Shown here: positions 35,313 through 45,381 of the stretch, piece after piece | Layout: each line of letters begins with the position of its first letter | Numbering within the stretch: position 1 is the first letter of the stretch | Assembly: GCF_002797535.1 (NCBI RefSeq) | Contig: NZ_PGFD01000001.1 | Coordinates: forward strand, 930,001 to 994,000 | Length of the DNA stretch: 64,000 nt | Reading direction: 5' to 3' | DNA from: Chryseobacterium geocarposphaerae | Lineage (GTDB): Bacteria; Bacteroidota; Bacteroidia; Flavobacteriales; Weeksellaceae | The notes under the pieces: model-generated | Seen by the model: the letters and a program-made list of their open reading frames with translations, nothing else | Told to the model about the DNA's origin: nothing | Database searches by the model: none | Translations under genes and position numbers: made by a program

Positions 35313-35342
35313 TTGCGGGATTAAAAATTAGTCCTACATTTG
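35313..35342 (+). promoter_or_regulatory. Promoter of the his operon
   Basis: TTG (35313-35315) and TACATTTG (35335-35342) are 19 bases apart, an excellent match to the Bacteroidota consensus. The leader peptide begins 19 bases after the -7 element. Confidence 0.75.
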
Positions 35343-35360
35343 TACCACAAAATTTCAACA

Positions 35361-35411
35361 ATGAAACCCAATTTTTTAACAGTACATCATTATTACCATC
35401 ATATCTGCTAG
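35361..35411 (+). CDS. hisL: Histidine operon leader peptide
   Basis: A 16-residue reading frame, MKPNFLTVHHYYHHIC, begins just after the his promoter. Codons 9-14 are CAT CAT TAT TAC CAT CAT: four histidines interrupted by two tyrosines, the hallmark of a translation-coupled attenuator. Its TAG stop (35409-35411) overlaps a segment AGACGG (35410-35415) complementary to the left arm of the downstream terminator. When charged tRNA-His is scarce, a ribosome stalled on the His codons leaves this segment free to pair with CCGTCT (35460-35465) and stop the terminator forming. The mechanism is inferred from the sequence layout. Confidence 0.9.
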   Translation: MKPNFLTVHHYYHHIC

Positions 35412-35454
35412 ACGGAATTGATTGAGATATACTATGTTAAAAATCAAAATAATT

Positions 35455-35487
35455 AAAAACCGTCTGAGTAAATAGACGGTTTTTTTG
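35455..35487 (+). terminator. Attenuator terminator of the his operon
   Basis: An 11-base stem (35455-35465 with 35474-35484) with core CCGTCT/AGACGG and a T7 run. Its left arm can instead pair with AGACGG at 35410-35415 in the leader peptide region; the two structures exclude each other. Confidence 0.9.
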
Positions 35488-35557
35488 TTTCTAAATTTAT
35501 CCCGGGAAATTTTTTCAATTCAACCATTTTTATTTGCTCAGACCCAACAAAAGTGAA

Positions 35558-36415
35558 ATGAGTAAATTAAAAATAGCCATACAAAAAAGCGGACGGCTTT
35601 ACGAAGAATCTCTTCAGCTTCTCAAAGACTGTGGGATTTTCATCAACAACGGAAAAGATCAGCTCAAAGTTTCTGTAGACAATTTCCCGATGGAAATCAT
35701 GTATCTGCGTAATTCCGACATACCTCAATATCTGGAAGACGGAGTAGTGGACATTGCCATTGTCGGGGAAAATCTTTTAGTCGAAAAACAAAAAAATATT
35801 GAAATCATTCAGCCTCTTGGGTTTTCAAAATGCAGGATTTCTCTGGCCATTCCAAAGGAAATTGAAACAGATGATATCAATTATTTTCAGGGAAAAAAGA
35901 TTGCTACCTCTTATCCAAATACCCTTAAAAACTTTCTTCAGAAAAATAATGTTTCAGCCGATATCCACATCATTTCTGGCTCAGTAGAAATAGCTCCCAA
36001 TATCGGTCTTGCCGATGGAATCTGTGATATTGTAAGCTCAGGAAGCACCTTATTTAAAAATGGCTTGAGAGAAACCATAACACTTTTAAAATCAGAAGCT
36101 GTACTGGCAAAAACATCACAGTTAAGCCCGCAAAAAGTATCCATTTTAGAAAAATTTTCATTCAGAATCAAAGCGGTCCTAAAGGCGAAAAACTCAAAAT
36201 ATATCCTGATGAATGTTCCGAATGAGAAGATTGAACTCATTTCCAAAACACTCCCTGTTCTTAAAAGTCCTACTGTAATTCCATTGGCAGAAAAAGGGTG
36301 GAGCAGCATTCATTCGGTGATTGATGAAGAACGTTTTTGGGAAGTCATAGACGAACTTAAAGAAAAAGGAGCTCAAGATATTTTAATAATCCCAATCGAT
36401 AAAATGGTCATTTAA
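35558..36415 (+). CDS. hisG: ATP phosphoribosyltransferase
   Basis: First step of histidine synthesis: joins ATP and PRPP. The ATG at 35558 gives 285 residues beginning MSKLKIAIQKSGRL; an upstream TTG at 35534 would add eight unrelated residues. Signatures: IAIVGENLL (about residue 69), LGLADGICDIVSSGSTL (PRPP-binding motif, about 150-166). The long form carries the C-terminal ACT-like regulatory domain (about 215-285), which mediates histidine feedback in this family. First gene after the attenuator. Confidence 0.96.
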   Translation: MSKLKIAIQKSGRLYEESLQLLKDCGIFINNGKDQLKVSVDNFPMEIMYLRNSDIPQYLEDGVVDIAIVGENLLVEKQKNIEIIQPLGFSKCRISLAIPKEIETDDINYFQGKKIATSYPNTLKNFLQKNNVSADIHIISGSVEIAPNIGLADGICDIVSSGSTLFKNGLRETITLLKSEAVLAKTSQLSPQKVSILEKFSFRIKAVLKAKNSKYILMNVPNEKIELISKTLPVLKSPTVIPLAEKGWSSIHSVIDEERFWEVIDELKEKGAQDILIIPIDKMVI

Positions 36416-41936: not shown

Positions 41937-42520
41937 ACATAAATTTTAATAAAGGTGGAGGTTTAGTTCCTGTTATTATTCAGGATGACAGAACATTGCA
42001 GGTGCTCATGTTAGGATATATGAATGAGGAAGCTTTTGAAAAGACAAAAAACGAAGGAATTGTCACATTTTTCAGCCGTTCAAAAAACAAACTTTGGACG
42101 AAAGGGGAAGAATCGGGAAATTTTTTAACGGTAAAAAGTATTGATATTGATTGTGATCAGGATACAATTTTAATTAAAACCGTTCCTAAAAATATAGTCT
42201 GTCATTCCGGAAGTTTCAGTTGCTTCGGCAACAAAAGCTATAAAGGCTTTCTATATGAATTGGAGGAAAAAATCAACCAGAGAATTGATGAAGAAATTGA
42301 AGATTCTTACACGTACTCATTATTTCAAAAGGGAATCAATAAAATGGCCCAAAAAGTAGGAGAGGAAGCTGTGGAATTGGTGATAGAAGCTAAAGACAAT
42401 AATGATTACTTGTTTAAGAATGAAGCAGCAGATTTACTTTATCATTATTTGATTTTATTAAAAGCCAAGAATATGAGTTTAGAAAATATTGAGGAAATAT
42501 TACTGGAACGTAACAAATAA
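41933..42520 (+). CDS. hisIE: Bifunctional phosphoribosyl-AMP cyclohydrolase / phosphoribosyl-ATP pyrophosphohydrolase
   Basis: A 195-residue fusion of steps 2 and 3. The N-terminal HisI domain (about 1-105) has [32 protein letters not shown] and the metal cysteines in DIDCDQDT and [13 protein letters not shown]. The C-terminal HisE domain (about 110-195) has [28 protein letters not shown], the MazG-like helices of pyrophosphohydrolases. Last gene of the operon; its start overlaps hisF by 4 bases. Confidence 0.96.
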
Positions 42521-44731: not shown

Positions 44732-45232
44732 TTATTTAGCCGGCTTTTTAGGACTCATCATCATAATCATTCTTTTCCCTTCAAGCTTAGGAAGCTGGTC
44801 TACTTTTCCTACATGCTCCAATTCCTGAGCAAGTTTCAGAAGTAAGATCTCACCCTGATCTTTAAAGATAATCGAACGGCCTTTAAAAAATACGTAGGTC
44901 TTTAGTTTTGAACCTTCTTCAAGGAATTTTTCAGCGTGCTTTTTCTTGAATTCGTAGTCATGCTCATCAGTCTGAGGTCCGAAACGGATTTCTTTTACAA
45001 CTACTTTTACCTGCTTAGCTTTAAGCTCCTTTTGCTTTTTCTTTTGCTCGTATAAGAACTTTTTATAGTCCAATACTCTTGCAATAAATGGTTCAGCCTT
45101 ATCGGAAATTACTACAAGATCCAATTCTTGTTCCTGAGCAATCTGTCTTGCTTTGTCAATTGGATAAACTCCCGGCTCTACGTTATCGCCCACTAAACGA
45201 AGCTCTCTCACACGAATTTTATCGTTGATCAA
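44732..45232 (-). CDS. infC: Translation initiation factor IF-3 (start codon unusual)
   Basis: IF-3 binds the 30S subunit, keeps it free of 50S and rejects wrong start codons. The domain order is typical: N-domain [42 protein letters not shown], Lys-rich linker [17 protein letters not shown]-domain [25 protein letters not shown]. No ATG exists at the 5' end. A TTG at 45232 gives 166 residues, but the frame stays open for 24 more codons and reads a basic IF-3-like extension ([19 protein letters not shown]), so initiation may be at a near-cognate codon such as ATA at 45292, giving about 186 residues. E. coli infC also uses a rare start (AUU) for autoregulation. Confidence 0.93.
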
Positions 45233-45381
45233 GTGAGCGTCCTCTTGTACCGGACGTCTCTGTGGGCCCCTGTTGTTAAATCTTTGTGCTATTGTATTAT
45301 AATTTTATTGGTTAACTTCTATTTTATTAATCATTCTGAATAAAATTAATTTTAAAAGTATTCGGAATGATATTTTTAGAT

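Follow-up and report, generated by a model that had tools for sequence, protein, structure and literature searches.

The his attenuator of Salmonella and E. coli (presumably Rfam family RF00514) has several parts in common with the leader that precedes hisG in the window, i.e., the entire 64,000-nt stretch of Chryseobacterium geocarposphaerae DNA analyzed here. According to the cited part of its description, that attenuator combines a His-rich leader peptide, a terminator before hisG, an antiterminator that forms when the ribosome stalls, and default termination in the absence of translation (PMC4046918); each of these features has an observed or predicted counterpart in the window. The two systems differ in the number and arrangement of their parts. 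Specifically, the Salmonella/E. coli leader contains seven consecutive His codons and six segments (A to F) (PMC4046918), whereas the window leader contains four His codons, in two pairs split by two Tyr codons, and four segments, plus an additional one, segment 5. RF00514 has no match in the window, even at a loose threshold (E up to 10).

According to the relevant passage of a 2013 review, translational regulation of the completed his mRNA has not been reported for E. coli and S. typhimurium (PMC3896937). The same review describes the hisD leader of Corynebacterium glutamicum, which is similar to the present one in having two alternative folds and a proposed translational control, with the terminator fold also hiding the ribosome binding site of the first gene. 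In contrast to the window locus, it has no His leader peptide, a T-box-like element has been proposed for it, and the hidden sequence is a Shine-Dalgarno sequence (PMC3896937). No T-box family matches the region upstream of the his operon in Rfam searches at the gathering and at loose thresholds.

The Bacteroid-trp RNA precedes trp genes. Its family (RF01692), listed in the cited passage as a probable cis-regulatory RNA in Bacteroidetes (PMC2864571), shows no covariance model match in the window or at the trp leader of the same genome. A single sentence on Flavobacterium psychrophilum, a member of the same order, mentions strong clues of leader-peptide attenuators upstream of amino-acid operons; these would be devices of the same kind, and the passage names no operon or structure (PMC9723704). 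Newly described his attenuators of Firmicutes share leader peptides with His codons as well as terminator and antiterminator hairpins, but they come from another phylum, have three to five His codons, and include no part similar to segment 5 in the portion of the account cited here (PMC9413887). The cited part of a 2021 survey that covers the his genes of Bacteroidota contains one mention of attenuation, which concerns enterobacteria (PMC8305728). An earlier prediction of Bacteroidetes his attenuators may be contained in the comparative attenuation study that Lopatovskaya and colleagues published in 2010, as cited in PMC4833913.

Taken as a whole, the comparisons described below point to the his leader being a ribosome-mediated transcription attenuator of the his operon, to which we assign a probability of approximately 0.88. 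The leader and the 1:2, 2:3, 3:4, and 3L:5 pairings (numbered as in Table 1) are supported by sequence comparison. Segment 5 is a new part of this otherwise known attenuator type.

His-rich leader peptide and its distribution

Direct reading of the sequence at 35313-35487 confirms every element listed in the preliminary description: a promoter, a 16-codon leader, AGACGG over its stop codon, and a terminator that shares CCGTCT (Table 1). The TTG-N19-TACATTTG arrangement is presumably a promoter of the Bacteroidota type, and a TACATTTG-like box is kept among the genus rows listed. Open reading frames that read as other his genes extend to approximately position 42520; hisG is the one checked by a profile match. 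The 178-nt stretch folds better than its own dinucleotide shuffles (z of -3.6, with 1 of 200 shuffles as good), its terminator sequence exists in a single genomic copy at up to 3 mismatches, and no Rfam family matches the 35313-35487 region at its gathering score. A small inverted repeat is also found in the interval between the terminator and segment 5 (window positions 35487-35531), for example, TTTCCTGAATTCTCCTCAGAAA in many members of the genus.

Table 1. Elements of the his leader and their positions in the window
Feature	Positions	Strand	Basis or remark
Promoter TTG-N19-TACATTTG	35313..35342	+	TTG at 35313-35315, 19 nt, TACATTTG at 35335-35342; direct reading
Leader peptide ORF MKPNFLTVHHYYHHIC and stop	35361..35411	+	ATG at 35361, 16 codons, TAG at 35409-35411; 113/113 genus loci
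Segment 1, outer left arm of leader hairpin, TTTTTAACAG	35373..35382	+	Compensatory UA to CG and AU to GC
His codons 9-10, invariant pair	35385..35390	+	112/112 counted genus loci; L012, outside that count, also HH
Inner left arm of leader hairpin, codons 12-16	35395..35407	+	RNAalifold consensus
Segment 2, AGACGG, antiterminator arm over stop codon	35410..35415	+	100% of cells pair with segment 3
Inner right arm of leader hairpin, CGGAATTGATTGAG	35413..35426	+	RNAalifold consensus
Outer right arm of leader hairpin, ATGTTAAAAA	35434..35443	+	Compensatory changes
Segment 3, CCGTCT, terminator left arm and antiterminator partner	35460..35465	+	In 113/113 genus loci
Segment 3L, GTCTGAGTAAAT, terminator upper left arm and loop, partner of segment 5	35462..35473	+	Alignment, cross-genus covariation, genus count
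Segment 4, AGACGG, terminator right arm	35474..35479	+	Direct reading and alignment
Terminator hairpin, CCGTCT GAGTAAAT AGACGG	35460..35479	+	Followed by T7; whole, CCGTCTGAGTAAATAGACGG-T7, 35460-35486
Terminator U-tract (T7)	35480..35486	+	Direct reading
Segment 5, ATTTGCTCAGAC, complement of segment 3L and of hisG start	35532..35543	+	Pairing counts, folds, covariation
Segment 6, hisG start, ATGAGTAAATTAAAAATA, pairs with segment 5 and preceding U-rich bases	35558..35575	+	Folds
hisG, first his operon gene, protein start MSKLK	35558..36415	+	ORF and profile match

Within the genus, hisG is present in 113 of 118 genomes. The 113 upstream regions that were read comprise the window's own, 111 from the genus search, and that of G251; G090, whose contig starts 250 nt before the match, was dropped. 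All 113 contain a His-rich leader, detected by pattern in 112 and by eye in L023 (HHYYYH), together with CCGTCT. Thus, relatives devoid of the His codons or of the complementarity, which the preliminary description had named as evidence against attenuation, are not found in the genus. One locus, L012, has a terminator right arm that reads GAACGG and is absent from the counts that need the terminator pattern, including the codon table. In the 112 loci counted, codons 9 and 10 are always His, and CAT accounts for 483 of the 491 His codons of the genus leaders. A His-rich short ORF is not a chance feature of such regions, as the pattern fits 194 of 214 hisG upstreams, whereas among dinucleotide shuffles it fits 20 of 1070 and among reverse complements 2 of 214.

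The two Tyr codons had been thought to possibly widen the signal to tyrosine. Codon 11 is indeed Tyr in 110 of the 112 counted loci, and a ribosome stalled there would leave AGACGG free too. However, this conservation within the genus is explained by common ancestry, codon 11 is Leu in one member and His in another, and codon 12 is His in 63 loci and Tyr in 49. Leaders of other genera mostly contain unbroken runs of His, often followed by Phe or Tyr, with Tyr found inside the run in a few cases (L041 and L060). An extension of the signal to tyrosine is therefore very improbable, and we reject it. Two kinds of exceptional loci were seen in the genus. In L016, L020, and L023, the leader lacks its usual stop codon and continues through the antiterminator segment (e.g., HHYHYHLCPDGIDW), so that the ribosome would finish further downstream; in G063 and G093, the hisG frame is broken by stops, which may reflect a frameshift or an assembly error.

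Outside the genus, a set of 102 loci (the window and 101 nongenus loci, with families coded by f-numbers) contains a His leader by pattern in 83 loci, 74 of which also have the terminator. The leader is found in 34 of 35 loci of the same family. In the same order, it is present in all 21 loci of f2-f4, f7, and f13-f15 and in 3 of 4 loci of f9; in the same class, it is present in all 8 loci of f17-f19, f22, and f23. Outside the class, it is found in 8/8 loci of f28, 8/8 of f35, and the one locus of f33, and it is missing from the single loci of f24-f27, f29, f31, f32, and f37 and from two loci of f30. With a false rate of the leader pattern of about 2% (20/1070 shuffles), the lone leader matches without a terminator (L096, L097, and L112) may be due to chance. 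The hisG gene itself is absent from half of the genomes searched, namely, 40 of 80 in the same family and 39 of 79 in the same order.

Two families display their own variants. All seven loci of f16, from 0.6-Mb genomes (L067, L069, L070, L073, L075, L077, and L080), have hisG without a His leader, and a scan shows that all seven keep a terminator-like hairpin before hisG. These genomes appear to be those of insect endosymbionts, where his regulation was probably lost upon genome reduction, which would make them a natural negative control. In the f35 loci (L092, L094, L104, L106, L109, L111, L208, and L210), the leaders have at least 8 His codons (e.g., MNRKNLHTTHLHHGVHHLHQGHHHA), segment 2 is absent, and hisG is not preceded by a convincing terminator, with a weak hairpin present in 4/8. 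The f35 leader is perhaps a His sensor of a different design that acts on translation.

A further set consists of 79 usable named loci, nearly all from Flavobacteriaceae or Flavobacteriales by title, which come from the best 80 of at least 590. The leader is found by pattern in 75 of the 79, and the terminator is found in 74 of these 75. Three of the four loci that are leaderless by pattern (L250, L273, and L292) show a two-His leader by eye, and L285 has none; judged by eye, the two His codons followed by a terminator-like hairpin look like weakened sensors. Named loci were dropped because of a short upstream sequence (L243), too little sequence after the terminator (L282, L297, and L302), or no terminator found (L251).

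Alternative hairpins of the leader RNA

The terminator (3:4) pairing is present in 23/23 genus rows, which represent the 112 loci and were chosen below a similarity cut. The antiterminator (2:3) pairing of AGACGG with CCGTCT is kept in the same 23 rows; the only changes there are G-U swaps, owing to the invariance of segment 3 in the genus. Across genera, the two partners change together, from AGACGG/CCGTCT in the window to CTCAAGCGA/CGTTTGAG in L033, CAGGTAG/CTACCTG in L095, GGGTAAGC/GCTTACCC in L110, and GCGGTAGGC/GCTTACCGC in L062. The comparison of hisG upstreams that had been suggested as a check of histidine attenuation thus supports it, with the His codons kept and the 2:3 partners covarying among genera. 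In the 102-locus set, a segment 2 complement is supported at p<=0.05 by mononucleotide shuffles in 61 of the 74 loci with leader and terminator. Dinucleotide shuffles support it in 37 of 41 genus representatives, and 2:3 reaches p<=0.05 in 66 of 71 named loci. Swapping the partners among 21 genus representatives changes the mean 2:3 energy from -12.0 to -9.9 kcal/mol (sd of swaps, 3.6).

A ribosome extends about 12-15 nt to the 3' side of its decoding site. Counted from the first His codon of the run, segment 2 begins after 15-36 nt (median, 24) in 61/61 loci, a set selected for a supported segment 2 by a search that itself started 6 nt past the first His. In 60 of these 61 loci, as judged from distances, segment 2 is close enough to the stop codon to be covered by a ribosome located there.

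The perfect 2:3 and 3:4 pairings, both of which use CCGTCT, would suit a minimal two-state attenuator without a leader (pause) hairpin, as the preliminary description had it. However, the genus consensus fold (RNAalifold) contains a conserved inner hairpin, which joins His codons 12-14 to the nucleotides immediately 3' of AGACGG and also occupies the CGG of that segment. Outside it, codons 5-7 pair with TGTTAAA in an outer helix. The outer helix shows compensatory double changes, UA to CG in L003 and AU to GC in L009. When it is counted jointly with the terminator, the covariation score is higher than in all 500 shuffles, and there are 5 double-changed cells, a number reached by 28/500 shuffles. 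By itself, the outer helix is weak, which fits the two-state device: it varies little, its last pair fails in 13/23 rows, and its duplex energy is at p<=0.05 against dinucleotide shuffles in 30 of 95 distinct pairs, with the window (p 0.109) not among them. Its own partners are still better (mean, -11.6 kcal/mol) than swapped ones (-9.1 kcal/mol; sd 2.3), and the leader-to-terminator regions fold at z<=-1 in 31 of 38 genus representatives. A device without a leader hairpin is therefore highly unlikely, and it is rejected here on account of the conserved leader hairpin that covers AGACGG.

From this arrangement, we infer the positions of the ribosome and the response to histidine. When histidyl-tRNA is short, the ribosome would stall at His codons 9-10. 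Its footprint would then take in the leader hairpin's left arm and leave AGACGG exposed, and segment 2 would pair with segment 3 and block the terminator. When histidine is ample, the ribosome would reach the stop codon and cover AGACGG, and the 3:4 hairpin would terminate transcription. In the absence of translation, the leader hairpin would tie up AGACGG, and the terminator would form as well. Equilibrium folding with the edge of a stalled ribosome gives mean P34 values of 0.84-0.86 and P23 values of 0.13-0.14. As 3:4 dominates at equilibrium even in this case, the switch must be kinetic, decided while RNA polymerase passes.

Segment 5 and the terminator loop

Segment 5 was missed in the preliminary description. 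In the window, it is found 14 nt before hisG and is complementary to the loop and the upper left arm of the terminator; across the genus, it ends 13-19 nt before the ATG. All eight core pairs of the 3L:5 helix are formed in 113/113 genus loci with nine versions of segment 5, and every change in its core keeps the pairing with the invariant GTCTGAGT. Over 12 positions, there are 12 pairs in 68 loci, 11 in 36, and 10 in 9. In the genus alignment, the helix is 95.2% paired, compared with 9-40% when it is slid. Its covariation score in the genus is modestly above that of the shuffles (reached by 7/500), because segment 3 does not vary.

Across the Flavobacteriales, both strands of 3L:5 change. The loop and segment 5 are found as GAGTAAA/TTTACTC, GAGTACA/TGTACTC, GAGCACA/TGTGCTC, GAGCAAA/TTTGTTC, GAGACAA/TTGTTTC, GAGCAGT/GCTGCTC, and GAACA/TGTTC, and the arm and segment 5 are found as GTCT/AGAC, GTTT/AAAC, and GCCT/AGG. 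In 44 distinct rows, one per distinct core, after 5 of 49 composite rows (L062, L063, L064, L086, and L276) had been dropped as misanchored, double changes are seen at 10 of 12 pairs, which is reached by 9/500 shuffles. There are 89 double-changed cells versus 37.7 (sd 4.8) in shuffles, and the covariation score is reached by 0/500. The locus's own 3L:5 partners form at least 11 of 12 pairs in 82 of 122 loci (124 minus 2 with no anchor or too short), a level that 11.4% of swapped partners and 2.6% of dinucleotide shuffles attain. Choosing the segment 5 register by best match favors pairing, and both controls were given the same freedom. In the 102-locus set, 73 loci are testable for 3L:5, and 43 of them reach p<=0.01, including the window and 30 of 34 loci of the same family; the pairing is not seen in f9, f14, f18, f19, f22, f28, or f35 of that set. 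Among 40 genus representatives, 18 reach p<=0.05 by dinucleotide shuffles, and the pairing is significant in 36 of 71 named loci.

Segment 5 does not appear to be a general companion of terminators, a possibility that is rejected because the trp and ilv leaders of the same genome contain nothing like it (p of 0.80 and 0.53, respectively, by mononucleotide shuffles) and the his terminator is unique in the genome. Another candidate role, that of a promoter or DNA site, would have segment 5 and its two look-alikes serve as binding sites of a DNA-binding regulator instead of RNA segments. Such a role would be in line with a span of about 120 bp that contains two copies of TGAGTAAAT and one of its complement and with the rarity of the 12-mer ATTTRCTCAGAC, which has three genomic copies when both strands are counted, two of them at the his leader. 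A binding site would be expected to retain its sequence, whereas segment 5 differs from genus to genus together with its partners and, within the genus, varies in its core just between pairing-compatible bases. A regulator site is thus extremely unlikely and was rejected on these grounds. Elsewhere in the genome, ATTTGCTCAGAC has one copy, G000:C1:2074135-2074146 (L307).

The literature on Bacteroidetes attenuation, on trans-acting attenuator RNA, and on his initiation, as retrieved by searches directed at these subjects and not at segment 5, contained no such element.

The 3L:5 helix shares bases with the terminator and antiterminator helices and is therefore mutually exclusive with both. In some genera, the 2:3 pairing also uses the GAG of the loop, so that 3L:5 must displace segment 2 there.

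The hisG start and the genome setting

In the genus, segment 5 and the U-rich bases preceding it also pair with AUGAGUAAAUUAAAAAUA, the start of hisG. Local folds without the leader and terminator give a probability above 0.5 for the AUG being paired with segment 5 in 112 of 113 genus loci. As segment 5 is complementary to both, the terminator loop resembles the hisG start, and the two compete for segment 5. In L041 and L197, all three elements have changed, with ATGAACAAA in hisG, TTTGTTCA in segment 5, and TGAGCAAA or TGAACAA in the loop; similarly, several Flavobacterium loci combine ATGAGTACA in hisG with TGTACTCA and TGAGTACA. The 5:6 pairing is significant in 33 of 71 named loci. Five others (L257, L269, L270, L279, and L288) keep 3L:5 (p 0.005-0.015) without a significant 5:6. 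Codon 3 of hisG is changed in 14 of the 112 genus loci with a readable start; in L011, L116, L122, and L145, the codon-3-changed loci among the 23 representatives, segment 5 has no matching change. Since 3L:5 is kept in loci without a significant 5:6, it is the more constant of the two pairings, and some lineages have 5:6 in addition. The converse view, with 5:6 as the core from which 3L:5 is derived, fails on the five named loci.

Folds of 23 species with one helix enforced leave the AUG paired in 22/23 cases with 3:4, in 21/23 with 2:3, and in 10/23 with 3L:5. The mean cost of opening the hisG start in these folds is 7.7, 5.1, and 1.1 kcal/mol, respectively, and the mean energies are -37.4, -32.1, and -29.8 kcal/mol, with 3L:5 the least stable. 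Thus, in these models, antitermination alone would not open hisG, and folding energies alone do not favor the opening by 3L:5, so that a translational layer would need kinetic capture. The cited part of a study of Flavobacterium johnsoniae finds mRNAs less paired from -20 to +20 and initiation lowered by structure (PMC6847099), which means that a hairpin over the AUG should matter.

An mRNA that extends past the terminator would carry segment 5, which could pair with 3L or, in the window's genus, with the hisG start. We infer the following direction for the translational layer. In mRNA that has leaked through a formed terminator, 5:6 would close hisG. Upon antitermination, segment 3 and the loop would be freed, 3L would capture the emerging segment 5, and the hisG start would open. 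A tentative reading, rather less likely than not, is that the Flavobacteriales his attenuator is a coupled double lock, in which the reading of histidine codons sets transcription and then, via segment 5, hisG translation. In this reading, the terminator loop would carry a copy of the hisG start region, with segment 5 complementary to both. If segment 5 works in this way, a second control point would be added to a textbook system. If the double lock is real, initiation would be gated by hiding the start codon itself, in a phylum without Shine-Dalgarno sequences.

TRAP control of trp in B. subtilis uses a protein sensor and sequesters a Shine-Dalgarno sequence. As with TRAP, one RNA decision in the his leader would affect transcription as well as the first gene's start. 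The sensor here, in contrast, would be the ribosome, and Bacteroidetes mRNAs lack Shine-Dalgarno sequences according to the cited passage (PMC6847099).

It is also possible, if uncertain, that 3L:5 performs no switching and merely makes the readthrough mRNA more compact or more stable or protects the AU-rich stretch that precedes hisG. This would account for the five named loci that keep 3L:5 without a significant 5:6, for the distance between the end of segment 5 and the ATG in the genus, and for the 3L:5 fold not being the most stable one, which fits badly with an equilibrium switch. Such a passive role is at odds with the mutual exclusion of 3L:5 and the terminator and antiterminator helices and with segment 5 covering the start codon in nearly all of the local folds of the genus.

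Rather unlikely, in our view, is an action in trans, whereby the terminated leader RNA would bind segment 5 of the his mRNA through its loop GAGUAAAU in the manner of a small RNA. The pairing of a loop and upper stem with a linear target before hisG would suit such an action, and there is a precedent, in the cited passage, in rnTrpL of Sinorhizobium meliloti, a trans-acting RNA that likewise stems from a leader-peptide attenuator (PMC7298713). The rnTrpL target, however, is the mRNA of another operon (trpDC), whereas the complementary target of the his leader lies in the same transcript (PMC7298713). In the window's genus, moreover, freeing the hisG start by the terminated RNA would turn hisG on at high histidine, which makes little sense.

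The same genome encodes additional leader peptides of this kind. L215, on the reverse strand, contains the leader MINSNNKFWWWHSNSSSGLKLYSCC with WWW before a trpE-like gene; L216 contains MNNTIIILVIFVIIGFRW with IIILVIFVII before ilvD; and L221 contains MNFLRNISDISIPDFSIPEGNFVSIIATTTTTTP with ATTTTTT before a thrA-like fused gene, which has an aspartokinase-like start and a homoserine dehydrogenase domain. Terminator-like hairpins are seen by eye 3' of the trp and ilv leaders, and L215-L218 have no Rfam match near the gathering score of any family. Together with the his leader, these trp, ilv, and thr leaders suggest that attenuation is a common mode of amino-acid control in this genome; it is probably not special to his.

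A leader-peptide attenuator requires the ribosome to be close to RNA polymerase. The presence of hisG attenuators, with helices that covary and distances that fit, in many families of Bacteroidota therefore argues for transcription-translation coupling in the phylum, which becomes testable with a single reporter.

A separate observation in the window, at 45232-45295 on the minus strand, concerns an ORF that we take to be infC-like. There is no ATG, GTG, or TTG between its upstream in-frame stop and the extended frame, which reads AAT TAT AAT ACA ATA GCA CAA AGA. Translation of this ORF may begin at a rare codon, for instance ATA; in infC, a rare start codon serves self-control.
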